Source: Quercus robur (taxonomy: Eukaryota > Streptophyta > Magnoliopsida > Fagales > Fagaceae). From it: a stretch of DNA of 64,000 nucleotides. The stretch is from positions 33,947,790 to 34,011,789 of the forward strand of contig NC_065541.1 of the NCBI RefSeq assembly GCF_932294415.1, read 5' to 3'. The position numbers and the translations under genes were made by a program. A model generated the notes under the pieces. That model was not told where the DNA came from. It saw only the letters and a program-made list of their open reading frames with translations, and ran no database searches. Shown here piece by piece: positions 4,106-54,292 of this stretch (position 1 is the first letter of the stretch; every line of letters begins with the position of its first letter).

Positions 4106-4354
4106 GTTTCAATGAATATTTGAAATGGACAAGAGCTTCAATCTGGTAAATCCAAAAGGACAAATGTAATTTGTCTTTCAATATTATTTCCTTATGTGGT
4201 GTTCCTTGCGGCCAATTCTTTTGGCGAATTTTTAATCTTTATTTCTTTCATGATTTGGAGAAGCAATCAAGAAAGCTAGGCCATGAGGAGTCGTTTTATT
4301 TTGTTTTGTTAATATATGGTGGGAACTTGTGGTTCTTAAATTATTGATGACTTG

Positions 4355-4378
4355 ATTTCTCAAAAAAAAAAAAAAAAA
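4355..4378 (+). mobile_element. micro-retroinsertion: ATTTCTC-A17 between 14 bp direct repeats
   Basis: TTATTGATGACTTG occurs at 4341-4354 and again at 4379-4392. Only 24 bases lie between, and they are ATTTCTC plus 17 A. Direct repeats of this length around a poly(A) tail are the mark of LINE-type target-primed reverse transcription. The three bases AAA before the left copy also match, so the repeat may be up to 17 bp. Confidence 0.8.
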
Positions 4379-4603
4379 TTATTGATGACTTGTTATCCCT
4401 ATGTTACCCATTCTGCCTTCACATTTTCCTTTTTGGTTAATACTTAAAAAGGGCTTTTATTCAACTTCATCAAACAGTAACAAGACGAGTACAAACTACA
4501 AAGTACAATACACATCACTTTTATTATCGTAGTTATACAAAGACTCCACATCCGGAGGTGGAACATATATAATTAAAGGCCCTTTAAAAGCAAAATCCCT
4601 TTT

Positions 4604-4620
4604 CTAAAAAAAAAAAAAAA
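4604..4620 (+). mobile_element. micro-retroinsertion: CT-A15 between 18 bp direct repeats
   Basis: The 18-mer AAAAGCAAAATCCCTTTT is present at 4586-4603 and 4621-4638. The 17 bases between are CT followed by A only. There is almost no element sequence, so the source cannot be named. Confidence 0.75.
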
Positions 4621-4639
4621 AAAAGCAAAATCCCTTTTG

Positions 4640-6612
4640 GCTCTCCGACGAGTATGTGAGACTCTTATTTCTTTCACATTTATACATACATATTTCTTTC
4701 CCAAAAGAGCATGCTTAACAGTCCAATTCTTTCCAAGCCTAAACTGCCACAAAAACTATTACTCTAGTCTATAATTAGGCCTAAGACAATAATTTCTTAA
4801 ATGAGAATTTTTAATATTTAACTATTTATTAAATAGTATTTATATAATTTTCTAATATAATTTTTTGTTTTATTTTTTAATAATCCTTCTTCTTTCTTTT
4901 TGATATGCAAGCTTACTAAATAGGTTGTTGTTTTAGGTTTTAGTAACATCCTAAAAGGCTAAAACTAGTAGGTAACCCATGCAATGCATGGGCAAGTTCA
5001 ACAAATATTTATTTTTATTATTATTATTATTGTTTTATAAATGTGTGTGTGGGGGTTGGGGGGGGGGGGGGTGTTGCAAGATTCGATAAAAAAAATATTG
5101 GAGGGTATAAATAATTAAATATAGTTCAAATCCTTCCTACTTGTTTTCTGATTTTTTCCAGCTCAACCATAAAAAAAACCTGCTTCATGATATTTGCTAT
5201 CTATAATCCAGTGTTGGTTGAAATTGCAAATGGTGTGCAATGGGCTGTAATAGTGTTAGTTGTTGTTGTAAGGAGAAGTTGAAATTGAATGAGAAGCTTG
5301 AAACGTGTGACAAAGGAGGTGGGAGAAGTTTGGATGAATTAGAATTCTATTTGAGACTCTGTTTTAATTTAAATTGAAAAAATAATTAATAAAAAGAGAA
5401 TTTGAATATATTAAGTTATCGACATCAAAGAAAAAGAAAAAAAAAACACGCAATTGCGTAAAGTTTTACAATTTCATTCTAGGAGTTTTCTTATTTTGAA
5501 ATCATTACGTGATAGTTTATTATTAGTTGTCATTATCTATTTTCAATATGGGTACGTGTGAGCATTTTATTTTGTTAAGTTTATATAACATTTTTATTTT
5601 TATGCAATTTTTATTATCTATTTGTAATTGTTTTTATAAAAATATTTTAAACTAATTAACAAAACTCAACTCACTTGCATTGCAATAATTATTAAACCAC
5701 ATAGCCACACTCATCCATAAATAAATAATACACTCAGTGTCTACTTAATCAATCAAATGCTTGAACAATCAGTAGCTTTACTTCTTCTTCTTTTCTTGAA
5801 TCATTGATTTTATGACAAAAAGTTATTATAATATGATTACAATACACACACTTGTAACAAACCCTATGTATTTCCTAATTATTAAATTATATAAAGTTAT
5901 ACTATACTTATACTATACATTCACACATATCACAGTTCACACAAATAATATTACAACAAATAATAATAATAATAATAATAACAATAGCAACAACAACAAC
6001 GCACACAAACAACATCAAACACTCACTCACACACACACACACATATAATATAAATTTATAATAAAGAGAGAGACTCACAATTCACAAACACTTATTCTTT
6101 ACTCTTAGAGTTGGAGATACTGAGATAGTCTGTGATTTGTGGTGTTGTTTAGTTTTGGGATGGACTAGTTTATGTTGTTATTTGATTTTGGGCTGATTTG
6201 ATCTATGATCATAGTGTGTAAGATTTAAGTCAAGGTGTGCAAAATATATATTTTATAGGTAAATTAAATTAGTAAAAAAAAGTAGTATATATATATAACC
6301 CCCTAAAGTGTATGTGAGTAACCCATGCCTTAGTTAGTAATAGACATTTATTTATTATAATTGTGATTGTACATGAAATTATTATTGTTCTAATTAAGGG
6401 TGTATATAAAAGATTTTATAGGGAATCCATAGAGATTTTAAATTCAAATAAAAAATATTGACATGGAAAAATGTGAGCTTTCTAAAGTTTATGTGTCAAC
6501 ATTAGAAGAAGTCAAAAGTTTCGGTGTTAAATATACTAGTTGCTAATCCATGTGATGCACCCGATATTTAGCAAATGTTAAATTTCTTTACTTTGTTCGC
6601 TGCTACAATTAG

Positions 6613-6653
<41 letters not shown>

Positions 6654-6712
6654 AAGGAGTGAAGGAGGAAGTATGGTTTTGTGTGACAAATAAAAACAAG
6701 CTGGTCACTCTT
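4640..6712. other. gene-free AT-rich stretch with simple repeats
   Basis: No gene recognised. It holds a GT/G-run tract (5042-5072), AAT and AAC trinucleotide runs followed by (CA)n (5950-6042), and a long (AT)n microsatellite (6615-6651). The one reading frame of note (5812-6048) is built from these low-complexity runs and is not a gene. Confidence 0.6.
6615..6651. repeat. (AT)n microsatellite
   Basis: About 18 uninterrupted AT units; likely length-polymorphic. Confidence 0.95.
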
Positions 6713-6725
6713 TTATTATCATCTT

Positions 6726-6877
6726 TTTTTTTAAGGAGTAAATTTTATTAACATACCTTGACTAAGTTGGCTTTAGAGACCAAATTAGTAAGTTTTGAAA
6801 AATCTTGAACCTGGTTGGCATTAGCACAAATCTTAAGGTATGTGAATGTAATTTACCCTTTTTGTTTTTAAGGAAAA
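6726..6877 (-). mobile_element. 152 bp inverted-repeat insertion with 13 bp direct repeats
   Basis: TTATTATCATCTT flanks the segment at 6713-6725 and 6878-6890. Inside, the ends are inverted repeats: GTAAATTTTATTAACATACCTT on the left pairs with AAGGTATGTGAATGTAATTTAC on the right. A T-run directly follows the left direct repeat, so on the minus strand the element ends in A. The inverted ends suggest a MITE, while the long direct repeat and A tail suggest LINE-type insertion. Confidence 0.55.
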
Positions 6878-7118
6878 TTATTATCATCTTATAAATTAAC
6901 AAAGCAAAGTATAATATATTATTCATATCATAACAATTTTACCCAAAAAAATTACATTAGGTGCAACTTGATGATAACCAAAAGTAACTATGAAGAGAAA
7001 TTCATGTAAAAGATACCTTGAGATTTGAGGAAGAATAATATATTTGTAAAAACAAAGAGCAAAAACAACATAAATGGTTTTAATGTGGTGCTGAATATAT
7101 ATTGTAATAGGTCCGTTT

Positions 7119-7271
7119 GGTTTAAAACTCTCTAGATTGCTAAGTAGTAGTTGGTTTAAAACTATAGTAGTGATTGGTTTAAAACTTTTAATCGTAATAG
7201 TCGTTTAAAACTCTCCATGTTGCTGAGTAGTAGTTGGTTTAAAACTTTTCAATTATAATAGAAGTTTAAAA
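7119..7271. repeat. imperfect local repeat of GGTTTAAAAC phrases
   Basis: The phrase 'tggtttaaaac' followed by 'tctc.a..ttgct.agtagtag' recurs about five times at irregular spacing. Decayed tandem duplication; no gene. Confidence 0.6.
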
Positions 7272-7393
7272 TTCTCCTTTTGACATAATAAATAAAAAGT
7301 TATGTGGAAAATTGTGAAGTTACCAAAATTTATTACGTGGCAAAATATTAGAAGGTCAATTAATACTCAAACATCTTCGGCTATTATATATTA

Positions 7394-7751
7394 CTCTCTC
7401 CGTCCTAATTTGTTTGTCATGTTTGAAAAGGTAAACTTTTTAAGGGAACATCATTTATTGTGTTGTTTACCTTATAAAAATGTATAAGTTTACAAAACTT
7501 CCCTTAAATAAATTTATTAGCTTTTTTTTATAATTTTTTTAAAGAGTTATTCTTAATGAAGCAACTAAAAAGGTGCCCCAATTAGATTGATTTTTTAAAT
7601 ATTTGTTGTTTTCTTTTCAAATAGTTTTGAAAATAAAGTAGGGGTATAATAGGAACATTAGTAAATTAATAACTTTTACTTTTAGAAACAAGACAATATT
7701 TTTGGACATCCTAAAATGGAACATAGGACAAACAAACTAGAATAGAGAAAG
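7394..7751. mobile_element. Stowaway-type MITE (Tc1/mariner superfamily)
   Basis: 358 bp with terminal inverted repeats CTCTCTCCGTCCTAATTTG / CAAACTAGAATAGAGAAAG (imperfect) and TA on both sides (7392-7393 and 7752-7753). CTCCCTCCGT-like ends with a TA duplication are the known Stowaway pattern. It has no coding capacity. Terminal mismatches suggest an old copy. Confidence 0.75.
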
Positions 7752-7769
7752 TATATATCTAGATTATAT

Positions 7770-7908
7770 ATTGTAGACTTTTGGAACCATTTTGTACAAT
7801 GTTAGTTAGGGGACTTTATTTGCTAAGAGGGCCTTGATACCTTTGTATAAATTTTTGGGGATGGGGACCTGTTCCTATCAAAAAAGAAAAAGAAAAAAAA
7901 AAAAAAAG
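7770..7908 (+). mobile_element. 5'-truncated L1-type LINE 3' end
   Basis: The run 'gactttatttgctaagagggccttgatacctttgtata...ttttggggatggggacctgttcctatc' followed by A-rich tail (7877-7908) is the typical 3' untranslated end of plant L1 elements. No coding part remains. Its pre-tail sequence (CCTATC) differs from that of the L1 at 23595, so it is another subfamily. Confidence 0.6.
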
Positions 7909-8129
7909 CTTGTCCAGTTTCTTGAAAGTTTAGCCTACTTTTGATGTAAAAACAAATTTATATCCATCAATATTTTGAATTGATTTAATAATAAATATTA
8001 ATATGAAAATGTCAAGTATTTGTGCAATGGCAAATACTTTCCACTGAAAATAATAGATTACGAAATCGAGTTTGGGAATTATCATTTTTAATAATAAAAA
8101 AATGCAAGACTATTTACTAATTACTTTTT

Positions 8130-8267
8130 TTAGACTTAATTATCTCTGATGATTGAATAAAAGATTTGTGGTTCAATTTTTGTCTACATTAAAAATCAAT
8201 TGATGTCGTAGTCTGATAATAAAGAGTTATCATCACGAGCATACGACATAGGTTAAAACTCTCTTTT
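8130..8267 (+). mobile_element. tRNA-derived SINE, copy 2
   Basis: The 3' body 'gatgtcgtagtctgataataaagagttatcatca...catacgacataggttaaaactctc' matches the tails of the copies near 39966 and 53361 (minus strand). The B-box-like phrase TGGTTCAATTTTTG is seen at about 8170; the A box is decayed. Confidence 0.65.
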
Positions 8268-8334
8268 AATAATTTTTTTTAAGAAAAAAAACCTCTCTTT
8301 GACTTAATAAAAATAAGATATTTATGCATTGCAC

Positions 8335-8360
8335 TTTTTTTTTTTTTTTTTTTGGCTGAA
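8335..8360 (-). mobile_element. micro-retroinsertion (minus): TTCAGCC-A19 between 13 bp direct repeats
   Basis: TTATGCATTGCAC stands at 8322-8334 and 8361-8373. Between them are 19 T and GGCTGAA, which on the minus strand reads TTCAGCC-A19. The same pre-tail bases occur in the insertions at 48327 and 51970. Confidence 0.8.
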
Positions 8361-8373
8361 TTATGCATTGCAC

Positions 8374-10244
8374 ATTAACTTTTAATATGAATGTTAGACA
8401 AATTAGTAATTACTCTCGAAAGTCTAAGCACTATAGAAATCAATCATTCATAGGAGGAATCTACAAGCTTCAATAACTAAAGGCCACATCATGGTTACTT
8501 GACGTTTCGTTATCGATCACAACGTAGAAGCACTATTTCTAAATAATAGACAGCAATTGGTCCATACGCTCAATAGAATACCCCAAAAAAAAAAGTGGGG
8601 GGCCTAAGGAGCTGACCCTCTATCACATGCAATGAAACGTTACCGAATCAACAAGAAGAAACAAGAAATTCTATAAACGCACGATTCTACTCTTAAAGAA
8701 GGTTATTAAATTGTGTTTTTTGTTCTAAAAAATACTACAACCACAATTTTTGTCATAACTTACTGTCAGTTCATAATTTCACTACTTACAACTCGCTACG
8801 TAGATAAATTATGACAAAATTGTGTTAAAAGTTATAATACTAGTATTATTCGTTTGTTCTTTTCAATTGTTGAATTATGCCAAATCAAGCAAATCCCTTT
8901 TTTAGTAAAATTGAAAATTTATGAATAGCACTTATTTTTCGGGAAAAAAAATGAATATCACTAATATTTGAGAGGTAGTAATTTCACATTATAAATAAAG
9001 TGTTTTTTTTCCAGTGCAAGCAACTACATTACTAGTCACTTTAACTAGTCCTCAATTGCACTATAAAGATATTGCAGCAATATTGTGTGGGTTTGTCAAA
9101 TACTTATGTTTTTTTTTTTTTTTTAATAATCCAATTGGCCTCAATCCCTTTAAATTACAATTTCAAGCTGCAGACCAACGTTCTGTCTGAATTGTGTAGT
9201 ATATAAGAAAAATGAGAGAGAGAGAGAGAGGGAGAGATTTGCCATATTATTTGCTAAAATATAGGCTACTGTATTAGCTAGAATCCACCCGTGAACAAAA
9301 TTAATACGGTGGAAATAGCCCCCACGCATTGTCCATGGGGACATTTTACTCCAAGTACTTCATGCAAATACTTTTTTTAAGCTCATTACTTCATGCAAAT
9401 ACTATTCAGTTTATGTCGGTTAAAAATCAAATCAACACAATTTGTCATTTTACTCCAAGTAGACACTTCATCGATCGGTTTAAGTCCGTTACATCAATCA
9501 ATTTTGTGTTAATTTTCAAATAAATATAGAAAAATAGAAATCTATATTTTTAGAATTTGTACATTAAACTTTTCGGGTTCCGTCAAATTCAATAACATTA
9601 ACATGTATTGGCAGATAGTTGTCATATTGGGGACCATTTAGAGCTGATGGTGATCATGAATACGTTGAAGCCTGAAAACTGAAAAGAATTTGTTCACTCT
9701 GTGATATAACTTAAATTCTGAAATGATACCAGTAAAAAGGGATAATAGCTCCGAATGTTTTTATGATTTCTACAGTGAAAAACATCAAATGAAGCCTCTC
9801 CATATCACCAATGAACAAACAATAGTAATTATTTATATCATATAGGGTAATTAGCAACTGGGTATATGATCAAAGCCGACATGAAAAACATTGATTTCCT
9901 TTTTTCTGTTTTTGTTTATAAAGGCAATAAAGATAAGGATCTAGTTGTAGTTGATATGAAGGATTTGTCCTTTCTAAATTTTTTCAGCTGCAAGCACCAA
10001 AACCACAAGATTGTATAACTTTATAAGTAGACATGACTTACCTGTTCATGAAATCAAGCTACCCTTCCCCACTAAAAGTTGTGGAGGCTATTGCAAGGTT
10101 CACCCTAATCATGCACTCTTGTACTATTGCTTCCTTTTAAGCTCTAGAGCTGAAACAATACCACTACTCTTCCTCTTTGTCTTTCTCTGCCTCCCCTTCC
10201 CCCACCACCACCCCCCACTCCCCCACCCAAAAAAAAAAAAAAAA
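8374..10244. other. intergenic region upstream of the transporter gene
   Basis: No gene recognised. It contains a T-run at 9108-9124, a (GA)n at 9213-9230 and a small cluster of direct repeats at 9340-9470. The last few hundred bases must hold the promoter of the transporter gene; no clear TATA element could be assigned. A CT- and C-rich tract (10150-10230) runs into an A-run just before the start codon. Confidence 0.5.
9373..9386 (-). mobile_element. possible micro-retroinsertion between 17 bp direct repeats
   Basis: TACTTCATGCAAATACT occurs at 9356-9372 and 9387-9403 with only 14 bases between (T6 plus AAGCTCAT; minus strand ATGAGCTT-A6). A second direct repeat of 16 bases (CATTTTACTCCAAGTA, 9342-9357 and 9447-9462) overlaps the area, so simple tandem duplication is an alternative. 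Confidence 0.45.
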
Positions 10245-12687: not shown

Positions 12688-12694
12688 GCAATGG

Positions 12695-12758
12695 AGGGAC
12701 CCTAGCATGTATGTATGCTTTCAAGGGACCCTAGCATGTCTGTATGCTTTCAAGGGAC
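12695..12758 (+). repeat. tandem 29 bp duplication in the transporter 3' UTR
   Basis: Two copies of a 29 bp unit starting AGGGACCCTAGCATGT (12695-12723 and 12724-12752, one mismatch) plus a six-base third start. It sits eight bases after the stop codon, so it is probably transcribed. Confidence 0.9.
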
Positions 12759-13229
12759 TTGCAGTACTATTTGGTCCCAGATATTGTTAAATTAATGTGT
12801 TTCACCCTCATAAATCATCACATGGTAATCGGTCATTTGATCCCTATTAAATATTTTGTGATTTATGAAAATGTCACATTAATGTGCGTTCTCAATGTTC
12901 ATGAACATTCTTAATTAACTACATCTGCAAATCAGGCATTCATCAAAAGAAAACCGTTCACTAAATTGCAGATATAAATTAAAAGGGTACCAGGTTGTAG
13001 GATTTCTCCATAGAGCAACTTCTAACCTGATAATGTTTCCAGCTGAGAATCACAAGACTCAAAACAAAATATAGAATTTAATAAACAACTGGGTCCATTG
13101 ATACATTAGTAAACTAGACAAAGCATCAAGCTTACTGAATTGGCAACGATTCTGGAAAAACTGTCTACTTAACAACAAATCCACATATAAAAAGCTTAGA
13201 GCTGACCACTGAAAAAAATGCATAGACCC
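12759..13229. other. convergent intergenic spacer
   Basis: About 470 bp between the 3' ends of the transporter (+) and uL30m (-). It must carry both polyadenylation regions. No repeat or extra gene seen. Confidence 0.5.
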
Positions 13230-21508: not shown

Positions 21509-22175
21509 TAGGGGTGTTCGCGGTGCGGTGTAGTGTGGTTTTAGGTCATTTTCAGCACCGTACTTTGCGGTGCGGTTTAGCTAAAACCATAACTACACCG
21601 CACCTTATTTTTACGGTCACATACGCGGTGTGGTGTGGTGCGGTTTAAAATTTAACCAAAACCATAACAGTACCGCACCTCATTTTTGCGGTCACATATG
21701 CGGTGCGGTGTATAAAATGTGATTTGAATGATTTGAAATTGGTATATATTTCAAATTTTGGTTCAAAACTAGTTTTTCTACCCAGTCCAAAACTAGTTTT
21801 TCTCTTTATTTTGGTCCAAGTTTTAAACTATTAAGCTAGTTTTTCTTTATTTTGGGCTAGCTTTCTTAATCAACACTTGCTAGGGTTATCAACTTTTTTT
21901 TTTTTTTGGGGGAAAATTAGGGTTATTAAACTATTAATAATATATATAATATTAAAAATAATTAAATATATTAATATATAGAGAGGGTGCGGTGTGGTGC
22001 GGTGCGGTTTGTGCGGTTTTCTTATTATAAAATTACAAACCGCACTGCACCATGCGGTGTGGTGTGGTGTGGTGTGGTGTGGTGCACTATTATTTGCGGT
22101 GCAGTGTGGTTATGCTATTTTGCAGGTAGTTTTGGTGCGATCTTTGTGGTTTATGCGGTTTGTTGAACACCCCTA
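21509..22175. mobile_element. non-autonomous hAT-type element
   Basis: 667 bp with terminal inverted repeats TAGGGGTGTTC / GAACACCCCTA and a perfect 8 bp target duplication CCCAACAA (21501-21508 and 22176-22183). 8 bp duplications with these ends mark hAT elements. The inside is full of the phrase GCGGTGCGGTGTGGTG in both orientations, mostly near the two ends (21520-21715 and 21985-22160), so it can fold strongly. No transposase frame. Confidence 0.88.
21893..21917 (-). mobile_element. possible micro-retroinsertion inside the hAT element
   Basis: TAGGGTTATCAA (21881-21892) and TAGGGTTATTAA (21918-21929), one mismatch, bracket 25 bases made of C, a T-run and GGGGGAAAAT (minus strand: ATTTTCCCCC-A14). 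It is younger than the hAT element, since it lies in it. Confidence 0.5.
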
Positions 22176-23572: not shown

Positions 23573-25171
23573 CTAATGGCACTTTTTCTTTTCTTTTTTT
23601 TGAGAAACCAATCGTGAAAATTCATTAATTGGGGGTGGCAACCAATGAGTTGGATGAAAGTCTGCTTCATGCATCGGTGCTAGGTCCTGTGCCATATGAA
23701 ATTCATGAAGGCATTGAATAGCGTCGATATAAATTTTTCCAATGGGCACTGTCACCGTCCCAAATTTCCTTGCATTCCGATTGTGCCAAATACTCCATCC
23801 GAAATAAGCGAATTACTCAGCCACTCTCGGATTTTTTTTGCGCAAAGAATCATTAAAGCAAGTCACGGAAGCACCTGAATTTTTCCCACAAGAAAGGTCA
23901 GCATTGTTGCAGCTCCCACCAAGTATCTTTTACCAGCGGGCAGCCCCAGATTCCATGGATCGTATCCTCAGTGTCATCACCACAGCGCTCACAAGTCGAT
24001 TCCGAAATGATATTCCGTTTCTGCAAATTTTTCTTTGTAGGAAAAGAATCGTTGGAAGCACGCCATAAGAAATGCCGTATTTTATTTGGCACATTCAGCG
24101 ACCACAGCTGCCTCCAGAACTGTTTGTGCGCCGTCGGGTTAGATGGACCAGGTTCTGAAAGTTCGCCCTCGTTTGAGAGAAGATGATATGCGGACTTGGT
24201 AGAGTAACAGCCATTGCTTGTGGCAGACCAGATGAGCTTGTCCTCGGTGCCGGTGGTGCTTAGATGTATGCTGATAATTGCCTCTGCTTCGTGAGGAAGG
24301 AATTCCTCTCTCACTCTATCTTCTAACCACCTGCCACTTTCCTCGTCAATGAGAGCACAGACCCTTGTGTTGTTGGGGAAGTTTTTTTGAGGCGATATCA
24401 CACGGCTTGCTTGTAAATCCGGAAGCCATTTATCCCCACGGATCCTCACACATTTTCCATCTCCTATCCTCCACTTCGAACCCAACCAAACTACCCTCCT
24501 TACTTTTAGGATACTTTGCCAAGCGTATGACCCATTCAACTTCACCCCCTCCTCTAGGATAGTGAAATTCTAGAAATATTTTGATTTGAAGACTTTATAG
24601 AAAAGGGAATCTTTATTGTGGAGCAATCGCCATACCTGTTTGCCTAACATAGCAAGGTTGAAATTTTCACCATCCTTGAAGCCTAAACCCCCTTGGCCTT
24701 TCGGTTTGCATAGTTTCTTCCATCCCACCCAGTGTGTTTTCCTTTTATCTCCCTTGTAGCCCCACCAAAATTTCCTAATTAGAGCTTCAACATCTTTGCA
24801 TAAACTCTTTAGGATTTTGAAACATCCCATGGTGAAAGTAGGCATTGCTTGAAGGACCTCTTTTATCAAATCTTCTCTACCACCTTGCGACAATAGTCTT
24901 TCCTTCTAGCCTTGCATTTTATGTCAAATCAATTCCCAAATGTAACTGAAGCTTTGGTTTTTTGCTCTCCCCACAAATGATGACAGACCGAGGTATTTGT
25001 CATAATTAGAAGTGATCGCCACCCCTAGGAGGGTTTTGATATTTTCCTGCATGTGTGGGTTTGTATTGGGGCTGAAAAAAAGTTGTGTTTTGTCTCAGTT
25101 GATTTGCTGGACTAAAGCTTCTTCATATTGTTGCAGGACCTCCAAAATAGTGGCACACTCTTGAGCAATCG

Positions 25172-25305
25172 CCATTATCACCCTATCTATTTCTACTATC
25201 TACAAAGGAGGGTGACACTCCTTTGATTGAACCTGAATTTTCAACTTGTTGTATGAGAGAATGTATCCCTTCTGCACATAGTAGAAATAGATAGGGTGAT
25301 AATGG
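25172..25305. repeat. 28 bp perfect inverted repeat inside LINE RT
   Basis: 25172-25199 and 25278-25305 are exact reverse complements, separated by 78 bp. The right arm is part of the normal RT block GDPLSPYLFLLCAEG; the left arm is foreign to RT and sits where the catalytic FADD motif is expected. Confidence 0.85.
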
Positions 25306-26315
25306 ATCCCCTTGACGGAGGCCTCTGCTAGGGGTGAAATTACCATATGGTTCACCATTTACCAAAATAGAGAGAGAAATAGATCTGATACTAGAGCTGA
25401 TAAGTGAGATACACCTACTATTAAAACCCAATTTTTTCATTTATTTTTCTAGGAAAATCCATTCCACTCTATCGTAAGCTTTACTCATGTCAAGTTTTAG
25501 GGCCATCAACCCCGTTTTTCCTTTTCTCTTAAATTTTAGGTGGTGGAGAGTTTCAAAATCTACAAGGATTTTATCAGAGATCAATCTGTTTGACAGGAAG
25601 GCACTTTGTGATTCTGAGACTAAATTGGGGAGTACTTTTTTTAGATGGTTGGATATGGTTTTGGACACAATTTTATATAGGACATTGCAAAGGCTTATTG
25701 GACGGAAGTCCTTGGCTTTGCAGGCAATTTAGTTTTTGGGATCAGTGAAATGAATGTATGATTTAGGCTATTAGGCATGGACCTCGAATTTAAAATTTTT
25801 AGAGAAGCATCAATCACATCCTTGCCAATAAAATTCCAACAAGACTTGAAAAAAATTGGAGACATACCATCTGGTCTTGGTGCTGTTAATGACTTCATCT
25901 ATTTCAAGGCATGTTCCACCTTCTCTGCAGTGTAATCCCAAGTCAAGTCAGCATTCATCAATGGGGTAACCTTTGTGTCAATTCCTTGAAGAATCTGCTC
26001 AAAGCTTAAGGGAGAAGTGGAGGCAAAAATTTGCTTGAAATAATCCGCCAACACCTCTCCAATCTGCTTGTCACCAACCACCACTGCCCCTTAATCCAAA
26101 ATTAATTTGGAGATAAAGTTTCCTTTGTTGCATTGGGTAGCTCAGCTATGAAAATAGCTTGTGTTCATATCCCCACTCTTCAACCAATCCACCCTTGATC
26201 TTTGATGCCACAAATAATCTTCCTTCACCATAAGGTCATACACATCGCCTCTTAGAGACCGAACTTGTTCATGATTAGTCCCTGCCATCGACATGAGTTC
26301 TGCTTGTGCTAACTG

Positions 26316-26341
26316 TTTTTTTTTTTTTTTTTTTTTTTTTT
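26316..26341 (-). repeat. poly(A) expansion in LINE ORF2
   Basis: A run of about 26-28 A on the minus strand codes poly-lysine between the endonuclease and RT regions. Frames differ on the two sides. No direct repeat flanks it, so slippage from a lysine-rich stretch is more likely than insertion. Confidence 0.7.
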
Positions 26342-27242
26342 TGAGATAACAATCGGCGAATATTGTTGAAAGAAAGCCTGCTCCATTTTTGCAAACTCAA
26401 ATGGCAAGCATCAACCTTGTACATTAGCCTGTCAACCGGTTCCTTAACATTTTTTCCTTCCCATGCAGATTTGATAATCCCCTCACATCTTTCATCTTTC
26501 AACCATACCGCCTCAAAACGAAAAGGCCTAGATTTCTTGTAAAATCTAACACTTTCATCGTTAGAACATAACCACAATGGACAATGGTCAGATAATGTAC
26601 CTTCAATGTGGTGGATTCAAACCGTTGGAAACAATTCAGTCCATGATGGAGTTGCTACCCCTTTATCCAGCCGAATCCATATCATCTCTCCATCAAAGTG
26701 ATTATTACACCATGTGAAAGGTGACCCAACAAAACCCAAATCCCAGAATCCACAAAAATCTAAAGCATCCCTGAATTCTCTTATCTGATGTTCCTGTCGT
26801 AGAGCACCCCCCTTCTTCTCTTCGGCTTTGGTGATTTCATTGAAATCCCCCACACACAACCAAGGCAAATCCATCTTCAAACAAAGGTGTGCCCAAGAAT
26901 GTTCCCGGTTGGCCGTTACTGGGTTTCTGTAAAAACCCGTTAACTGCTAGGAGTCATCCATTCCTGGGTTAACTACTACATCAATGAATATTGGTGTTGA
27001 ATTTATTACTTTGAGATTAATTCCATCCTTCCAATAGAGTGCCAAGCCACCACTTGTGTTGACCCTTGGCTCAATGAAAACGTTCTCTATATGTAGCTTT
27101 GAACAAAGTTTCTTTAAGTGGCTGTCCTTTGATCTAGTCTCCATGAGAAAAAGTATAGAAGGGGAATATTTTTTCACCAACTCAATGAGCTCCAGAACTG
27201 CATGTGGTTGTCCCAATCCACGACAGTTCCAACTTAAGCAAT

Positions 27243-28744
27243 TCATTGGATTTGGCAGGGCTGATTAACAGCCTCCACCACTTTGGAATAATCATCATGA
27301 ACAACCTGGATTGTTTGTTGTCGTTTGGAAGGGGAATCTGATGAATATGTGTATTGGCGTTTTCTACCAAAGAGAAGTTCAGGTCCTGGAAGTTTTTGAG
27401 AGAGTCCAACGTCACATGTTTTACGAAACCAAGTGGGTAAAATTCGAAGTTTTGCTGCTAAGTTTGAAACACTAGCCAACTCTTTGGGGTTATGTGAGTC
27501 ATTTAAGTTGCCATGGTTTTGATTAATACTTGTGGCACGTGAGTTGGTTTTGTTTGAATTGGGATTGGACTCTTCAATGTTGTCGTATTTTGCCAACTCT
27601 GCATCAATTTCATTTAATCGTGTATTGAAATCCTTATCATCAGAGGCAACAACGGCTTGTGGAGTAAAAAAGGCTGTAATTGTGTTTGAAAGCAAATCAA
27701 CTACTTTATGATGGTTATCAAAAACGGCTTAGGGATTAAATGCTAACTCATTGCCACAGTTTGTACTCTACATTAATTCTGTTTGAGTCTTAATCGTATG
27801 ATTAATTCCAGGATGTGCATTATGCACTTAATTGTGACCGATCAAATTGCCTGAATCGTTTCCTTCCCCCCTACTCCAGTCACTGGCTTGCTTCGCTTCC
27901 CTGATTTTTAACGAATCTTGCCCTATTTCATTGAAGTCCATGGATGAGGATGATTGAGGAGCTGTAGATTTCTTCTTTGTCGAGTAGAAACCCGGGACTG
28001 TCATATCGGTCTTTCTAGTCATGATGAAGGCCAGAGCCTTAAACTTGAATCAAATTTTCTGTCCTCTGGCTTTAGCGTGCCCTTACTATCAATCCAAATC
28101 TCGCAATCCTTGTCATCATGAGTTAACCGACCACACCAATAACATAGGTTTGGTAAACGTTGGTACTTAAAACTTACCCAAATTTGTTTGCCATTCTCTA
28201 ATGAGATGAGGTGCCCACGACACAAAGGAAGGGATAAGTCTAGCTTCACCTTGAGCCACAGGAAATTTCCACCATCAACTTCCTTGAATTCCTTAGGTTG
28301 GAACACTTCTCCAATCATATTACTTATTTTTAAAGCCGCTTCCAAGGTCAAGTATTGTGGGGGAATGCCATGGAGTTGGACCCAAAAACTTGCATTGTCG
28401 AAATTGATTTCACCAACTGGAACTTCTTTGTCGTATCGCTGCATGACAACCAAATGCTTATCAAAACTCCATGGTTCACTTTAGAGGATTCTATCAACAT
28501 CCACCTTGTTGTCGAAAGTGAAAAGTATTATATGATCTCCATAATTTTGAATCTTGAACCCATTACATGACCTCCATAAAGGATTGAAAGTTTTTGCAAT
28601 AGCATCAATATTTAGGACTCTCTTTGTAAGAAACTTTGCGATGATGGAAAACTCCAAGGAGCAATCTTCATTGGTTAGATTGCATCCAGGACCCTCCCTG
28701 TCGGACAAGGTGAGACGACTCCAATTTTGAGTTAGAGCTTCCAT
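27243..28744 (-). pseudogene. LINE ORF1 (DUF4283 + CCHC zinc knuckle), decayed
   Basis: Nucleic-acid-binding protein of plant L1 elements. The N-terminal half has a DUF4283-like region (FSIIAKFLTKRVLNIDAIAKTF, then 'FWVQLHGIPPQYLT...KISNMIGEV'). The zinc knuckle CYWCGRLTHDDKDC follows near 28110. An in-frame TAA interrupts it at about 28481, and the frame changes near 28020 and in the 27700-27830 stretch. The last part (27695-27243) is low-complexity, rich in N and S. Its stop codon overlaps the ORF2 start as ATGA (27246-27243). Confidence 0.85.
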
Positions 28745-29018
28745 AGTCCCTAAAAGTAGAAGCTAACCAAATCTATTTTCTGTTTCCCAAGACCCCAAAA
28801 AAAAAAAACAATAGCCTAGGAGTACCCTTGATACTCCAAGGAACACACAAAACAACCTTCAAAATGAAGGGACAACCACAATTCTACTAGGCAAAAGAAA
28901 GTTGAAACCCAACTTTAGTTGCTATAGAGAAACCACTTCAGCCTTAGAAAAACAATGTCCCTCGTTTTCTTTATTTTTTAATAGAGTGGAGCTATACCTA
29001 ATGGCACTTTTCTTTTCT

Positions 29019-30285: not shown

Positions 30286-30356
30286 GTAAGTGATGTAATT
30301 CAACCATAAATTAATTTTTTTTCTCAAAAAAGAAAAAAGAAAAAACCATAAGCTAA
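30248..30356. repeat. 38 bp tandem duplication with a micro-retroinsertion in its second copy
   Basis: GTAAGTGATGTAATTCAAC starts at 30248 and 30286. After the second copy, AACCATAAATTAA (30302-30314) and AACCATAAGCTAA (30344-30356) bracket 29 bases (30315-30343): T8 CTC A6 G A6 G A4. This has the TTCTC-A(n) end and the interrupted A tail seen in the L1 at 23595. Two mismatches in the bracketing repeats make it an older case. Confidence 0.6.
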
Positions 30357-40113: not shown

Positions 40114-40264
40114 AAAAAAATCACTTTATTAAAATACTTAACCTTAACTCTATTTTTTTAAACCTTCATTTTATTAACAAATAGAAGATATCTTTAAACT
40201 TAGAGGTCAACGTACTTAAATAACATATCTATCAGTATCTATACATATATTAAGTCACTTATAT

Positions 40265-40286
40265 GTTCCTCACAAAAAAAAAAAAA
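40265..40286 (+). mobile_element. micro-retroinsertion: GTTCCTCAC-A13 between 13 bp direct repeats
   Basis: AAGTCACTTATAT at 40252-40264 and 40287-40299 brackets 22 bases, GTTCCTCAC plus A13. Confidence 0.78.
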
Positions 40287-41112
40287 AAGTCACTTATATA
40301 GTTAAAAAAATAATTTAAAAAAAAAACTATTTCCATATTTCAATACTAAAATAGTATTAAGTATTTTATTTTTATGCTCGGTTGAGACTTTTATTTTTTA
40401 TTTTATCTATGGTACGTGTTGTCTTTGCCGTTATTTTTAAAATGAAAAAAAAATAAAATATATATATATATATATATATATAGAATTGTGGAGGTCCACT
40501 ATTTTTTTTTATTGCTTGATTAAAATATAATTTCGTTGAACTATGAATTGTATTTAATTGAATTTCCAAATTATCCATCAAATTAGTTTAGTTCTTAAAT
40601 GAGTAAATTTTATGGGTTATTTAGTTTATGTATGTGGGGGATAATTGTTAATGAAAAAAATTTATATATGCATAATTTTAAGGGCTATGTAAAGACAATC
40701 AAATGAATAGTTAGCTAGGAGTAGTTGAATTATATTTTCTTTTTGGTTAATATAACAATTTGTTGAAAGTGTGTAAAACTATAGTTATATCTAAAAAATA
40801 TGAGGGATTTAAAAAGTTATATATACTCAAATATAATACAATTAAATAAAAACCATTTAACCATTTGCTAAATTTTTTTATATAAAAAAAGGATAATTAT
40901 TGGGAAAATTACACTCCATCTCCAATTTGAAGGAAAATAACATTTTTCTCCCTTGACATTTTTTTGACCAAACTCTATTAAATTGATGTTAAAAATGTTG
41001 TTTACTAACTTGCATTTTGCTTTATGGGAGAGTTTCCAAAATTATCTTCCCTTTCAAAATTAAAATATATTAATTTAAATTTTTACTAAAGAGTATTTTA
41101 AAATATTTAGTG

Positions 41113-43508: not shown

Positions 43509-43556
43509 GATGATGACACATGTCTAAAACTTGATACATGTCATCATCTCAACGGT
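43509..43556. repeat. hairpin 430 bp upstream of PUX5
   Basis: AGATGATGACACATGTC and GATACATGTCATCATCT are inverted copies with one two-base bulge, separated by about a dozen bases. Could be a MITE relic or an upstream regulatory fold. Confidence 0.55.
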
Positions 43557-47543: not shown

Positions 47544-48326
47544 CTGGTTGCATTGGTGCTAACCCCCATTTGTGTTAGCTTGCCTACATATATATGATAA
47601 AAACTTGACTGATTTCATGTTATACATAAAAGAGTTTGATTAATAATTCAGTTCAGAAGTGCTTTCATCGTGGACGTGTTTTTCGAAGCAGAGACCTATC
47701 CAAATGCAAAAACACAGTTCAATTTGAGATAGTAAATCACAGTTGGATGTATCTATGTTTCAGTGGTTTTCTGTTTTCCTTTCTTATATTCTTTTGCTAT
47801 GGGGTTTTAGACGGATTGATAGTTCTCCTTTCTAAGCTCTGCACCAAATATGAGTCGACTGGTTGGAGAATAGTGAATCTTTAGTACCCCTTAACAAGAG
47901 GGGCAAATGCCAAAATCTGCATTCAATCCCATCTCCTTTTTAAGACAAAGAAAACCTGTTTTGGATGGAGCGGGATTGATCAAAGGCTATCCCCACTCAA
48001 TTTTCACTTTTTTAGTTAATATATGTACAGGTTACATGAGTTAATATGTTTTGCCCTGGTGGTAATTGCAGCAGTTGATAATGAGCCTTTCAGAAACCAA
48101 TCTGGCAACTGGATTTTTCCCACCTGTATTGGGGAATATGGATGGGGCTAAAGATACATAGGCTAAATTGTTTATGAGTAGGCTTTCTTCCTAGATTTTA
48201 TTTATCATCGTAAATGTAAGAAAAATTAAATTTATTCTGTCTTCCAACTATAATAATTAGATTAGGTACACTAATATGGTGCACTATAAATAGTCTCTCA
48301 AACTCTCAAGTCTTACATTCACAGTA

Positions 48327-48339
48327 TTCAGCAAAAAAA
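48327..48339 (+). mobile_element. micro-retroinsertion: TTCAGC-A7 between 19 bp direct repeats
   Basis: AAGTCTTACATTCACAGTA (48308-48326) and AAGTCTAACATTCACGGTA (48340-48358), two mismatches, bracket only 13 bases. Confidence 0.72.
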
Positions 48340-48713
48340 AAGTCTAACATTCACGGTACAAGACTTGTCATATGATGACAAGACTGCATTGGTGGCCGGA
48401 TTATATTCTTGGATTTCACATCAGAAGCAGGGTTTTACATCCTGCTCAGCGCTTGTTTTAGAACATTTGCCCTTCTCCATTTCAATTAACATTATAAACA
48501 GGTGTACACCTCATTTAACAACGTATATTGAAAACACGGTATAAGGGAATTTTGAACACGTTTTGGGGTCATCTTTGCTCTTTTAAACTCTATAACAGTC
48601 CAATACTCCATATTTCTTGTATTTCATCCACAACATTATTTATTTTCTCTGAATTATATATAACTCATTGTTAACGTCAAGTTTCACCCACAGTATATGT
48701 GATAAACACAGCT

Positions 48714-48715
<2 letters not shown>

Positions 48716-48750
<35 letters not shown>

Positions 48751-48757
48751 GAGAAAC
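48716..48757 (-). mobile_element. micro-retroinsertion (minus): GTTTCTCAAAAATTT-A27 between 12 bp direct repeats
   Basis: AAACACAGCTGA (48704-48715) and AAACGCAGCTGA (48758-48769), one mismatch, bracket 42 bases. Read on the minus strand the inserted bases begin GTTTCTC, the same pre-tail bases as the L1 at 23595. Confidence 0.75.
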
Positions 48758-50245
48758 AAACGCAGCTGAAATTAAGAGCACTAAAAAACAATGATGAATG
48801 AACCAGAACAATTAGCGTGCATTTAACATATATGAGTAGACAACCAGTTTGAGATCATGACCACTGAATTGTGATTGGAGACAGTCTAATCTTACTTTTT
48901 GAAAGCTATGGCGAGTACATAGAAAAGTTGCATGTGCAACTCCTTTGCCAGATCCACAACTAGCATAGGGTCTAGATCACCTATCAATTTTAACATTATG
49001 AGTTCGTCTAATCATAATTTTTTTTTTCTTTTTTTTCTTGAGAGGCCTCCGAAGTCTGAACATGTTCTGGAGAGAGGTAGTCCTTTTCTTTTCTTTTTTA
49101 TTATTATTTTTATGAACAAAAACGGAGGCCGGGTGACTATTGTGTCTCACGTGTGACCATAGGCGCGTTCTCTGTTAGAAAATATTGGATTAAGTTATAA
49201 TTATTATGATTGATGGTGACCACAAACATCACTGAGAGAACTAATAAATCAGAGATTAGTTACAAGATCTCACTTTCTACTAGAGTTGGTACAGAGGACC
49301 TCAAAACAACTATCACACACTTTGACTACTCAGCCACCCCGTCGGTGGTATCTTTTATACTTTTATGACTTTGTCTGGATTTATATATTATTAGTTGGCC
49401 AAGGGGATTATGCTTAATTGGACTACACCGTCCCTGTAATCACATAGTCTACGTAGGTAAAAAGTAGGACACTTATGGAATTGATTTTTATTGTTAGTAC
49501 TATAATCGTATTCATGTGATACACAGTTTAATAAAAATATATATATTATATGCAAACAAAAAAAAAAAATATTTTGATAATATAATTAAAAAGTAAAATA
49601 ATTTAAGTTACATAATGTATAAGTTCAAATTTGTAACGAAGACCAAATATAATATTAGAATAGGTTATAAAATAATTTAAAATAAATAATAAATTTTCTT
49701 TTAAATATATTGAAACTTATGATAATTGAGGTTAATCAAAATAATATTTTGATAATATTTGGTAATATATTTTTTCACTTTTTTTTTAGAAGAAAAACTT
49801 AGAATTTCACTTATGTAAACTATGTTAATAATTTTAATAGACTTATAATACAAACGCAAAGTATACAACCCAATTTTTATTATTAAAAAAATTATAAAGA
49901 TTATTAAAATAATATGAATGATGAAACTTCTTTTAAATTTAACTAAACCATTAATGGTAGAATTTAATGGCATTATAATTTTTAAAATTTTTGGAACTTT
50001 AGTATTAGAGTTTCACTGAGAGGAAAATATATTAATTATTTTAATATACTTAATTAAAGTAGTTTAGGATAACTTGTTTAATAAAAAAAGCAGTTATATT
50101 TTGTGGTGGAATAAAATATATATATATATATATATATATAGTTAATAGTAACTTTAGGCAAGCCATGAGATGACTAGAGGGCAAGGGGCGTTGGAGTTGG
50201 ACCTTTATTTTATCCTTTGGTCTCACCTCAAGTTGTAAATACAAA

Positions 50246-50312
50246 TTCTCTCAACAACAACAACAACAACAACAACAACAAAAAAAAAAAGGATAAAAAA
50301 AAAAAAAAAAAA
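50246..50312 (+). mobile_element. micro-retroinsertion: TTCTCTC(AAC)n-A between 16 bp direct repeats
   Basis: AAGTTGTAAATACAAA at 50230-50245 and 50313-50328 brackets 67 bases made of TTCTCTC, about ten AAC units and an A-rich tail with one GGAT. The AAC run probably grew inside the tail after insertion. Confidence 0.75.
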
Positions 50313-50463
50313 AAGTTGTAAATACAAAAGTCCTTGAAAGGGCTGGCCATGCTATTATTCATTGAAGTCACACACATTGAGTTTTGTTGGGTAGAGATCG
50401 AACCCTAAGTGGTGGCTAGGCTAAAGAGAATGGAGAAAAATAATTTTCTTCTTCCTCTTAGTG

Positions 50464-50657
50464 TCTGTTTGGCATAATTAATTTTGTTAATTTATTTTAC
50501 TATTCAGCTTATTTTTTCTATTATTAATGGTTCCCACTACACTTTTTGATACTATTCATAGGTCTCATTATATTATTTTAATTAACTTTTACCTTTATTT
50601 ACAGTACTTTTAATAAAAAATTTTCAGTTTCAACAAAATAAATAGATCCCAAACAGA
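50464..50657. mobile_element. hAT-like MITE, 194 bp
   Basis: Ends TCTGTTTGG / CCAAACAGA with 8 bp flanks TCTTAGTG (50456-50463) and CCTTAGTG (50658-50665), one mismatch. The body also carries 'attattaatggttcccactacac', part of a common tree MITE family. No coding. Confidence 0.75.
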
Positions 50658-51565
50658 CCTTAGTGCATACACAGTTTGGAGTTTTTCAACCATAAATAGC
50701 CCCACTCTTGGCCTATCTTATAGTCATCGAGGTGAACATCAAGGTCGTTCAAGAAGTTGCTTGCTGGAATTTTAACAATAAATAGCCTCAAGTTTGTAGC
50801 ATTGAGGTATGTGGTTCTTTCATTAGAAGTTTTAGATTTAAGGTAACATGTGATTTGTGCAAAATATGAAGATCATAATTTTTATTCCACTAGGTATTAC
50901 ATTACATGTATGTGATGTGATGCATGTTATTTTCCAAAAAAGCCAGTTGTCTTGTATGAGCTAGCTAGTAATGGAGCTGAATATGTGCCATGATAATAGG
51001 ATTTGGGTGAATTGAATAGATGATGTGCATGATGCATTTGGTTACATTTGTATCAACTATCAAATATCATGTTATTTCCCTCTCTTTAACTCCCAGATTA
51101 TGGCTTATGGGTGTGGAGCAACCAAGCATGCTGGATATGAGATTTACACAAGATTTGGTCGCAACCCCCTATTGACTATTGGAGCATGGCATGTGCTAAG
51201 ACAAGAAACCTTGTCTCGACAATGGAGTATGTCATCATGTCTTTCACTTTCAAAACGTTTTCCTTCTTTTCTTTTCTCAACTCTTCCGCTTGCGTTTGTG
51301 TAAATACATAATGACAAAAATAATTTTCAAGTTTCGATCTCCTTTTGGTAGTGTTACATATTGCCGTTTAGTTTGTGTCAAACTGTATAGGCAAGTCGCA
51401 CTTCAAAGATTGATGGGATGGGAATTTAAGCGTACAGCGTCCCGTTTAGCTGCAAATAATTCATTACTTCAATAGCAAGTCATGACAAAAGTGAAAACTG
51501 AAAAGAAATTAGGAACAGGTTCGGAAATAAGGTTTGTTCAGCGGGACATGTTACTAGAAGAGAAA

Positions 51566-51613
51566 TTTCAGATTTTTATTCTCAAAAAAAAAAAAAAAAA
51601 AAAAAAAAAAAGA
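51566..51613 (+). mobile_element. possible micro-retroinsertion ending ATTCTC-A29
   Basis: AGAAGAGAAA (51556-51565 and 51614-51623) brackets 48 bases ending ATTCTC and a long A-run. The bracketing repeat is short and purine-rich, so chance is possible. Confidence 0.4.
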
Positions 51614-51969
51614 AGAAGAGAAAATGTGGACACAATTTCTGTAGTGATGGAAAATTATACAACTGAGTGTATGTGAAAATAATAGACACACGCTTACTGT
51701 CTTTCGCATCAAAATTTATGACAAAAATTGTAATAAAGGAGTAACTCTTTCTAAATTCATAGGGAAGCAACGCTACTCAAGAAAACGCCCAAAGGAAAGA
51801 AAAAGAACTCATAGATTTTTGGTGACCAAAGGAAAAAAATGAAAAAAAAAAAATCATTATTTTCATGAAATAATAATTACATACTTTAAAATTTTGAGGG
51901 GCCTTGGCCCCACCCTTAAATGTGATTATGCACTTGTCTATCTCATTAATGTCAAAATTATTTAATTAT

Positions 51970-51991
51970 CATTCAGCAAAAAAAAAAAAAA
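51970..51991 (+). mobile_element. micro-retroinsertion: CATTCAGC-A14 between 16 bp direct repeats
   Basis: AAAATTATTTAATTAT at 51954-51969 and 51992-52007 brackets 22 bases. Shares TTCAGC-A(n) with the insertions at 8335 (minus) and 48327. Confidence 0.78.
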
Positions 51992-52008
51992 AAAATTATT
52001 TAATTATG

Positions 52009-52175
52009 AGAAATGCTATATTCAAAATATTTTCACAACAAATTTAAAGTGAAAAGTTGTTGTGAGTTGTTATTATTGGGGTAAAAAAGTAATTTCAGTA
52101 GTAGGTTCAAATTATAATCAATAACAACTAACCACTTATGAATATATTATGAAAATGTTATGAATATAGCATTTT
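52009..52175. mobile_element. short MITE with AAATGCTATATTCA ends
   Basis: Left 'agaaatgctatattcaaaatattttcacaac' and right 'gaaaatgttatgaatatagcattt' are inverted copies, and 'gagttgttattattgg' pairs with 'aatcaataacaacta' further in. The same end sequence stands at 42614. No coding. Confidence 0.72.
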
Positions 52176-53360
52176 TTTTTTATTATGGATGATAAAATAC
52201 TTTCAATCTGTCATGTTCTCAACCTATCTTGCTTACATTCTATGTGGGTGTTTCTCATTCAATAAAAAAAATAAAATAAATAAAAAATAAAAAGAGGAAG
52301 AAGAAGAAGCTAGATTAAACAATGCTTGAACTTGACCTACTACTTTTTAATGAATTATTTCATTCCTCATTGAATTTTTAATATATTATGGAAATCATTT
52401 GAAAAATTCAAATTCTCACCAACTATTTCTATACAAGGTGTGGTGTACCATACCAGTTCGGTGTGATTAGTTTGGTACCCAAAAAAAAAAAAAAAACCCA
52501 AATACTTAAATAAATAAATAAACCCAAACCACATCAAAATAATCAAACAACCCAAATATTAAATAAATAAATAAAAACAAACAAACAAGACATATTCACA
52601 ATATTTTTCTAATACCCACATAAAATATCTCAAACAAATTCACATTCTTTCTAAAAAGCATAATAAGGAGAAGAATAGTAGCTTAGATATTGAACATCAA
52701 ATACATTTTCATACCTAGTAGAAAATATAGCAAAGACAAGTATAGTAGCCTAGATATTGAGCATCAAAACCTTCTCTAAAAACTTCCAGAGAATAATCAT
52801 GACAAAAGGGAGTGAGGAGGGAGGAGAGAGAAGAAAGAGAAACTTGGAAAATGGTGGCATAGAGTGACAAAGGATGGTGGCAATGAGTGGGGGAAGCTGA
52901 GGAGTGAGAGAGAGGAGAGGAGAGGGGGAGACTTCTTGTAAGGAAGCAGACGAGATGAATTACTTTGTTGTCTGATATAAATAAATCTAACTTAGGGATC
53001 AAAATTGAAACAAAAATGCCATCACGCAATTAGTGTGCAAAACCAGCAATCAGTCAATGCATCGCCTGTCTTGGTTCACCCAAGTTTCCGCTAACCACCA
53101 TGCTCAAAACATTCGGTGGAGCCTTGCAAAGGCTTATTTCATCAGTGCTGGTCAGATTTTGCATAGCCCTAGCAAAAATTGTGTTTTTTCGATATTGTGA
53201 ATGACCTTTGTAAGGTGAATTTGTGAAAGAATATGTAAGTATTTATGTGAAAATTTAATGTTTTTGTGATAGAATTGATGTTATTTATGAAAAAAAAATT
53301 ACACTATTTTATGCCACAATTTTGATGTGTCAAGTTATAAGTGTTAAAAAAAATAACAAT

Positions 53361-53513
53361 TTTTTTTAGAGAGTTTTAAATTTATAGCGTTCGCTCTTAA
53401 TGATAGAACTTTATCATCAAATCAAAACACTAGTCAATTTTTGGTGTAGATAGAAATTAAATTCCAAATCTCTTTTTCAACTAAAATTTTTTTTACCACT
53501 TAAGCAAACTGAA
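53361..53513 (-). mobile_element. tRNA-derived SINE, copy 4
   Basis: On the minus strand: A-box-like GCTTAAGTGGTAAAA, then 'tgaaaaagagatttggaatttaatttctatctacacc', 'gtttgatttgatgataaagttctatcat...gcgaacgctataaatttaaaactctc' and an A tail (53361-53367). Family as at 3196, 8130 and 39966. Confidence 0.7.
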
Positions 53514-53542
53514 ATCCATAATAGCAAATTCATTTAAAAGTG

Positions 53543-53558
53543 TTTACCCAAAAAAAAA
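53543..53558 (+). mobile_element. micro-retroinsertion: TTTACCC-A9 between 17 bp direct repeats
   Basis: AAATTCATTTAAAAGTG at 53526-53542 and 53559-53575 brackets 16 bases. It lies 30 bp beyond the 5' end of SINE copy 4. Confidence 0.78.
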
Positions 53559-54292
53559 AAATTCATTTAAAAGTGAGTTAATAATCTACTGCATAAAACA
53601 TATATAAAAATAAATAAATAAAAGATGTGGTCTAAAATAACTCATCATTTGTAATATGCCTTGCACATGGCATTGTTATAAATTTCAAAGGATAAATAAA
53701 AAGACTTGTTTGGAGAAGACTAGAGGAAAAGACATTCGGAGTGTCCCACCAACTTTCTATCAGCTCTCTCTTTTTTTCTCTCAGCTCCCAAAACTCACTT
53801 TTTCTACTATAAATTATTATTGATTAGACCCATATGGCTGAGATTGAATGGTTGACAACAAAATGAGAACTATATTTGAAGAGGTAGAGATAGAGACGAT
53901 GTCGTTTTGCATGAATATAACCCAGCAAACGGTGTCGTGTTTCCAGGCTTGCCTTTGTTGTTTTGCCCTAGAAAGGTTAAACACTCCCAAAAGTGAAACA
54001 TAAACACTGTGCCTACCTGTGTGTATGAGAGAGGACAACGTGAAATCACAAAGGGAATATTAATAGTATTAATTAATATAATGGAAGGAGGGGCTGTGAT
54101 TGAGAGGGCAGTGGGTACCATCAAATGGACGGTTGAGATTGATTACCATCAATCACTAACACCACGAATTAAGCTTCGAGCACCAGAGCAAGAAGTTTTC
54201 TTTTTCTTCCCATCAATTCAACCCCATTAACTTGATTATCCATATGATCCTCTCCATAATTAAGCAACATCAAATAGTACCTTTTTCTCTCT

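Follow-up and report, generated by a model that had tools for sequence, protein, structure and literature searches.

5′-truncated copies of L1-type LINEs (long interspersed nuclear elements) carry a target site duplication (TSD) and poly(A) and keep the 3′ end of the element, and the cause of the 5′ truncation is an old open question. A-rich microsatellites, as Nadir et al. reportedly described in 1996, can also arise from retroposon tails. For human NF1 exon 25, the relevant part of one published report (PMC3219598) describes an L1-endonuclease-dependent poly(T) insertion of about 120 bp, one of 18 insertions, and its authors suggest there that it is possibly a severely truncated Alu, L1 or processed pseudogene. 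Here we analyse a 64-kb stretch of Quercus robur DNA (C37:33947790-34011789; hereafter the window), together with the genome searched (785.7 Mb, 42 contigs), and describe near-empty insertions, in which direct repeats enclose an A-run and, before it, a body of a few bases. Each site is, very probably, a finished event of target-primed reverse transcription (TPRT) by L1-type LINE machinery. The original prediction made on this DNA had likewise proposed TPRT primed on poly(A) with an early stop, and this is supported by bodies that correspond to LINE 3′ ends, by empty paralogs and by an excess of direct repeats.

Repeat-flanked A-runs in the window

The window was scanned on both strands for A-runs of at least 8 with a direct-repeat score of at least 10, a threshold reached by 9 of the 101 A-runs. 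Swapping the flanks left a mean of 0.5 repeat-bearing A-runs (maximum 2; 40 shuffles), and dinucleotide shuffling with the A-runs kept in place left 0.4 (maximum 2; 60 shuffles), so that the pattern does stand above the dinucleotide-shuffle level, the comparison that the original prediction had proposed. One of the 9 scoring A-runs (2846-2905) overlaps a tandem array and was not taken as an insertion. Outside the window, in 149.7 kb that consist mostly of stretches chosen because they contain a motif, their centre excluded, 14 of 207 A-runs score at least 10, the expectation being 0.4.

All 13 places named in the original prediction were read individually. Eight of the ten called good pass the threshold, and the two below it have bodies that nevertheless end in TTTCTC. 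Among the three called weaker, 9356-9402 stands with its exact 16-bp repeat and 21881-21931 with its empty paralogs, and 51556-51623 stays doubtful. The window sites are given below, LINE families A and B being two families of this genome described in the next section.

4338..4392, plus strand: near-empty insertion; exact TSD of 17 bp, body ATTTCTC, A-tail; body end like that of LINE family A
4586..4638, plus strand: near-empty insertion; exact TSD of 18 bp, body CT, A-tail
8322..8373, minus strand: near-empty insertion; exact TSD of 13 bp, body TTCAGCC, A19; resembles the LINE family B end plus C
9356..9402, minus strand: probable near-empty insertion; exact TSD of 16 bp, body ATGAGCTT, short tail A7
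21881..21931, minus strand: near-empty insertion inside a dispersed repeat; TSD of about 14 bp, body ATTTTCCCCC, A14; empty paralogs
30302..30356, plus strand: probable near-empty insertion; TSD of 13 bp with 2 mismatches, body end TTTTCTC, interrupted tail; below threshold
40252..40299, plus strand: near-empty insertion; exact TSD of 13 bp, body GTTCCTCAC, A-tail
48308..48358, plus strand: near-empty insertion; TSD of 19 bp with 2 mismatches, body TTCAGC as at the LINE family B end, A-tail
48704..48769, minus strand: probable near-empty insertion; TSD of 12 bp with 1 mismatch, body GTTTCTC, tail A5-TTT-A27; below threshold
50230..50328, plus strand: near-empty insertion with patterned tail; exact TSD of 16 bp, TTCTCTC, then AAC repeats and A-runs
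51556..51623: doubtful site; 10-bp repeat; not counted among the near-empty insertions
51954..52007, plus strand: near-empty insertion; exact TSD of 16 bp, body CATTCAGC, A-tail; body end like that of LINE family B
53526..53575, plus strand: near-empty insertion; exact TSD of 17 bp, body TTTACCC, A-tail

The TSDs of the window sites measure 10-19 bp, and those of the eight passing sites 13-19 bp. The site at 9356-9402 has only A7 and was therefore missed by a scan for A8 or more. A-tails fused to CAA or AAC arrays recur (window 50230-50328, L108, L128 and L162) and are perhaps the tail type of one element family.

Bodies and LINE 3′ ends

TTCAGC or TTCAGCC is found in three of the window bodies; other bodies terminate in TTCTC or TTTCTC. 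In the genome, TTCAGC followed by A14 occurs 565 times (283 and 282 on the two strands) against 17 (9 and 8) for the reversed pattern, and TTTCTC-A14 occurs 5,880 times (2,919 and 2,961) against 378 (187 and 191) when reversed and 433 for the permutation CTTTTC-A14. A repeat score of at least 9 was found nearby at 33 of 50 sampled TTCAGC places (expected 1.8) and at 24 of 40 sampled TTTCTC places (expected 2.1). Some of these places are not near-empty; at L081 and L095, for instance, the second repeat copy lies 12-13 bases past the A-run.

The bases just before the A-run are often TTTCTC or ATTCAGC, and two LINE families of this genome have these same sequences as their 3′ termini. Family A is represented in the window itself:

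23573..29011, minus strand: degraded L1-type LINE (family A), 5.4 kb; TSD AAAAGTGCCATTAG; 3′ end GGTTTCTC plus A-rich tail

Its target duplication is 14 bp long, and the Pfam domains DUF4283, zf-CCHC_4, Exo_endo_phos, RVT_1 and zf-RVT were found in broken frames; its endonuclease, reverse transcriptase and zf-RVT domains are a candidate trace of an enzyme source in the same genome. When a 518-base query from its 3′ part was searched, relatives matched to about base 471 and then, after some 480 extra bases, from about 469 to 518; therefore the window LINE lacks an internal stretch but keeps the family end. The deletion of about 480 bp lies downstream of the zf-RVT region and upstream of the last 50 bases, presumably the region where plant LINEs often carry RNase H. 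An A-run within this LINE (26316-26342) was considered as an extra insertion and not counted, no flanking repeat being seen by eye. In nine relatives of family A, GGTTTCTC precedes the A-run, and in one subfamily the pattern GATTGGTTTCTC-A6 occurs 12 times in the genome. Family B was approached through L014, a longer LINE copy by its sequence, from which a 431-base query gave at least 40 matches (40 of 70 candidates scored); eight fetched copies with the end ATTCAGC, the locus of L014 included, extend to TATTTATTCAGC or a close variant.

A short interspersed nuclear element (SINE) with a GTTTCTC-A(n) end accounts for 7 of the 40 sampled TTTCTC places. Copies of this SINE family with a family A-like end are L070, L071 (ATTTCTC), L072, L096, L101, L102 and L104. 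One further place (L067, which is also L142) is occupied by an 85-base element that has a tRNA-like GGGTTCGAGC box and ends in TTTCTC. Bodies with CTTTCTC or CCTTTCTC rather than GTTTCTC were read at L033 (run at 1359), L075, L079, L085, L086 and L089, and likely come from a further source family or subfamily.

Empty sites

The flanks of 21 near-empty sites, five of them in the window, were joined without the insertion and sought throughout the genome; of 377 candidates, 40 were scored. At least 7 of the 21 (L046, L055, L057, L058, L083, L084 and L089) have contiguous paralogs whose length is close to that of the empty form, with at least 14 such rows for L046. In base-by-base alignments of eight paralogs, one or two per site, the body, the A-run and one copy of the repeat are missing as a unit from every one; the L057 and L084 paralogs also have small gaps at other positions. 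No paralog appeared for the five joined window sites among the matches listed. Seven further window sites were treated in the same way (40 of 499 candidates scored), and 21893 (21881-21931), which sits in a dispersed repeat, is the only window site with paralogs among the matches listed. Of the four short-form copies read there, L193 and L194 show a clean single target, L195 is less clean and L196 is disturbed, and L197-L200 carry a form of the insertion. In this dispersed repeat family (window 21881-21931 and paralogs L193-L200) many copies have the same near-empty insertion, and it seems that the spread of the host repeat multiplied the scar. The filled copies are the majority, and therefore the direction of change at this site rests on the direct repeat. 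The original prediction had proposed a search for empty sites in related species or haplotypes; here the search covered paralogs of the same genome, and a single-copy target is present in these for at least 7 of the 21 joined sites and for window 21893.

For single paralogs, precise loss through recombination between the repeats is a formal alternative that could also produce an empty form, but it hardly explains the 14 concordant paralogs of L046. Replication slippage, or A-runs lying by chance between repeats with no insertion at all, agrees with the fact that most A14 runs are without a repeat; we consider it next to impossible for these sites, given that the repeats are 12-19 bp long, that the end bases are specific to LINEs and that empty paralogs occur, and where such paralogs exist they refute it. 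The argument made from the outset that the repeats do not come from slippage is borne out by the same three observations.

Length of copying

The strict set comprises 35 of 90 motif places (score of at least 12, body of at most 15 bases; one, L024, with body 0). Their median body is 6 bases, and all lie at 4-9 bases save L024, a tandem double. Their TSDs have a median of 16 bp and a range of 12-25 bp, the 25 belonging to L024. With 10-19 bp in the window, they accord with the roughly 7-20 bp of L1-type target duplications. A target of the L1-type endonuclease would have T before AA. The base before the TSD is T or C in 28 strict sites, A in 6 and G in 1; the AA at the start of the TSD is partly forced by the way the A-run is delimited. 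Body and tail lengths are uncorrelated (r = 0.03). L024 (minus strand, runs at 1506 and 1544) contains two consecutive near-empty units with a common target repeat, which arose either by a second insertion at one site or because the first unit was duplicated in tandem.

Since every motif place must already contain six fixed bases, a motif-blind count carries more weight than the strict-site lengths. It covers 321 A-runs of at least 9, with L001 (which lies in the window), loci from L165 on, motif-selected central runs, runs near an end and one duplicate excluded; the two length sets overlap slightly (L009:482 is L097, and L067 is L142). Bodies of 0-2 bases were counted 2 times, 3-4 once, 5-6 five times, 7-8 six times, 9-10 once and 11-15 twice; beyond this, 16-25 gave 0, 26-50 gave 2, 51-100 gave 4 and 101-230 gave 2. 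With swapped flanks the expectation is 0 for bodies of at most 15 bases and does not exceed 0.25 in any bin. Thus 11 of the 17 bodies of 0-15 bases are 5-8 long. Read by eye, some of the entries above 25 are tandem repeats, the SINE-like element L142 or the patterned tail at window 50230. For family B, six more LINE bases cut the count from 565 (TTCAGC-A14) to 17 (TATTTATTCAGC-A14), of which 9 are known longer family B copies; a few of the other 8 are possibly of intermediate length.

Copying, then, mostly stops 4-9 bases beyond the poly(A). The early stop was correctly foreseen as short; what has to be corrected is that the stops cluster at 4-9 bases instead of being randomly spread. This clustering also bears on the alternative that long insertions were later stripped of their interior by deletion, which the window LINE, short of about 480 bp present in its relatives, would favour. 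Such deletions would need repeated endpoints 4-9 bases from the tail with a clean repeat junction at 35 strict sites, and the motif-blind length peak is contrary to them, whereas a flat length spread would have favoured them; we regard this alternative as very improbable.

Another conceivable cause of the stop is a hairpin at the LINE 3′ end that halts the reverse transcriptase at its base. The family A copies L169, L171 and L175 do fold with a helix that closes beside GTTTCTC, and the last 7 bases of family B can pair upstream. Across 9 family A ends (two subfamilies pooled), however, the named helix has 66.7% of its cells paired and shuffles have 69.0%, only one pair is changed on both sides, and bodies of other origin are similar in length, which makes a hairpin stop unlikely. 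A stem beside TTTCTC in the window LINE was rejected as the stop signal, since it spans the deletion junction, which is absent from the relatives.

Frequency in the genome

Ten evenly picked 5-kb stretches (50 kb in total) contained no near-empty site and one site with a 66-base body. On contig C1, 6 of 60 A14 runs score at least 11 (expected 0.56). By their anatomy, 4 of the 60 are near-empty (L113, L119, L139 and L144), and the scoring runs L111 and L115 are other repeats. This sample is non-random, being the first 60 plus-strand A14 runs, of 100 listed, at one contig end. With 248,779 A14 runs in the whole genome, the 4 of 60 would correspond to near-empty sites in the order of 10,000, with a wide margin: a Poisson range worked by hand on the 4 sites, from one contig end, gives about 4,500 to 42,000. 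Most A14 runs are something other than near-empty insertions. The supposition that the density of the window holds genome-wide was therefore too simple, with about 4 of the 60 C1 A14 runs near-empty and none in the 50-kb sample.

Proposed mechanism

The sites show a target duplication, poly(A) and, in two groups of bodies, LINE-specific end bases, and paralogs with a single copy of the target show that an insertion took place. For the enzyme steps and the early stop we infer the following. The endonuclease would nick the target before AA, and a LINE transcript, or a SINE transcript with the same end, would prime at the nick with its poly(A) tail. The reverse transcriptase would copy this tail and, in most cases, no more than 4-9 bases of the 3′ end next to it. 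Once joined, the short complementary DNA would leave the target duplicated over 12 to about 20 bp. The 4-9 base stop is common to unrelated 3′ ends, an indication that a protein determines the distance and the template sequence does not. According to the section of PMC10830416 used here, human ORF2p contacts 15 nt of single-stranded poly(A), a contact that may carry over to plants. The reason for the early stop that we prefer, at slightly less than even odds, is that the enzyme often comes off soon after the poly(A), before long-range copying begins.

A related possibility, which we take seriously while leaning away from it, is that the route of insertion is the same and the template is already short: decay from the 5′ side would trim the LINE RNA until it meets the proteins on the poly(A), with 4-9 bases left over, and reverse transcription would run to the template end. 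A protein footprint fits the similar body length across unrelated 3′ ends and its independence of tail length. Moreover, PMC10830420 in its pertinent passages favours RNA cleavage over an inefficient polymerase as the cause of 5′ truncation and finds that most ORF2p in particle preparations rests on poly(A). The similar body length and the r = 0.03 fit drop-off equally, however, and the trimmed RNAs are themselves a postulate here.

Several observations count against early-terminated TPRT as the general explanation. The permutation control CTTTTC-A14, with 433 occurrences (211 and 222), is itself twice its reversed count of 212 (106 and 106). A repeat score of at least 9 is absent at 17 of 50 TTCAGC and 16 of 40 TTTCTC places; L061 has its matching repeat 45 bases away and is not near-empty, and the repeat-scoring L069 and L077 are paralogs within a simple repeat. 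Six bases are a short identifier of a source, several bodies (CTTTCTC) are unlike the ends read in family A, and further ones, TTTACCC and GTTCCTCAC among them, are not tied to a source. Among the matches listed, 11 of 12 window sites have no paralog. Finally, human ORF2p is highly processive in the same passages of PMC10830420, contrary to simple drop-off.

With these points weighed, it seems to us nearly an even question whether the commonest product of LINE TPRT in this plant is a scar of 25-50 bp, with a checkpoint 4-9 bases past the poly(A) that ends most attempts and lets the remainder run for hundreds of bases. If the two-state length distribution (4-9 bases or long) is true, most failures occur at one early step; and if the checkpoint is true, about ten thousand abortive products form a fossil record of initiation apart from elongation. 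The scars are too short for ordinary repeat annotation, and they create A-runs, small duplications and indels. They are also markers with a known direction of change, and where a remnant agrees with the 3′ end of a LINE, it indicates which element left the scar.

Other features of the window

The window proteins comprise a POT-family transporter, Copia proteins and plant-type LINE proteins; Copia-type remains (Retrotran_gag_2, gag_pre-integrs and Pol_BBD) lie at 758-2131 on the minus strand. Within the window no Rfam family reached its gathering score.

Comparison with known systems

A literature search with narrow terms, covering few subscription journals, turned up no earlier description of a genome-wide class in plants, of 4-9 base remnants specific to a LINE or of a length peak of this kind. 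The bodies are too short (0-15 bases) to hold the RNA polymerase III-derived body with boxes A and B of a SINE. The plant SINE ending in GTTTCTC-A(n) has the same 3′ end and tail as the near-empty sites, and its copies share tens to about 200 bases with one another, where the near-empty sites keep only the end. As for processed pseudogenes, two body groups are LINE ends and the remaining bodies are too short to be assigned a source.

Like retroposon-tail microsatellites, the A-runs described here are made by reverse transcription; there, unlike at near-empty sites, the A-run is said to accompany or derive from a longer retrotranscript. With 5′-truncated L1-type copies the sites share the TSD, the poly(A) and the retained 3′ end, the last of these being seen for the TTTCTC and ATTCAGC bodies and not for others such as TTTACCC and GTTCCTCAC. 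They differ from ordinary 5′-truncated LINE copies in that the truncation is extreme and narrow (in family B, 565 with 6 end bases and 17 with 12).

As in the NF1 poly(T) insertion, to the extent that the pertinent part of PMC3219598 describes it, a poly(A/T) stretch stands without element sequence. Window 4586-4638, with body CT, is such a tail without a recognisable element, a likeness to that one human case and not a homology. Unlike the single human case described in that part, the plant sites are many, their tails are short, and in two groups a 4-9 base remnant names the source LINE. A poly(T)-only insertion is thus already known from human disease; the abundance and the narrow length class found here look new.

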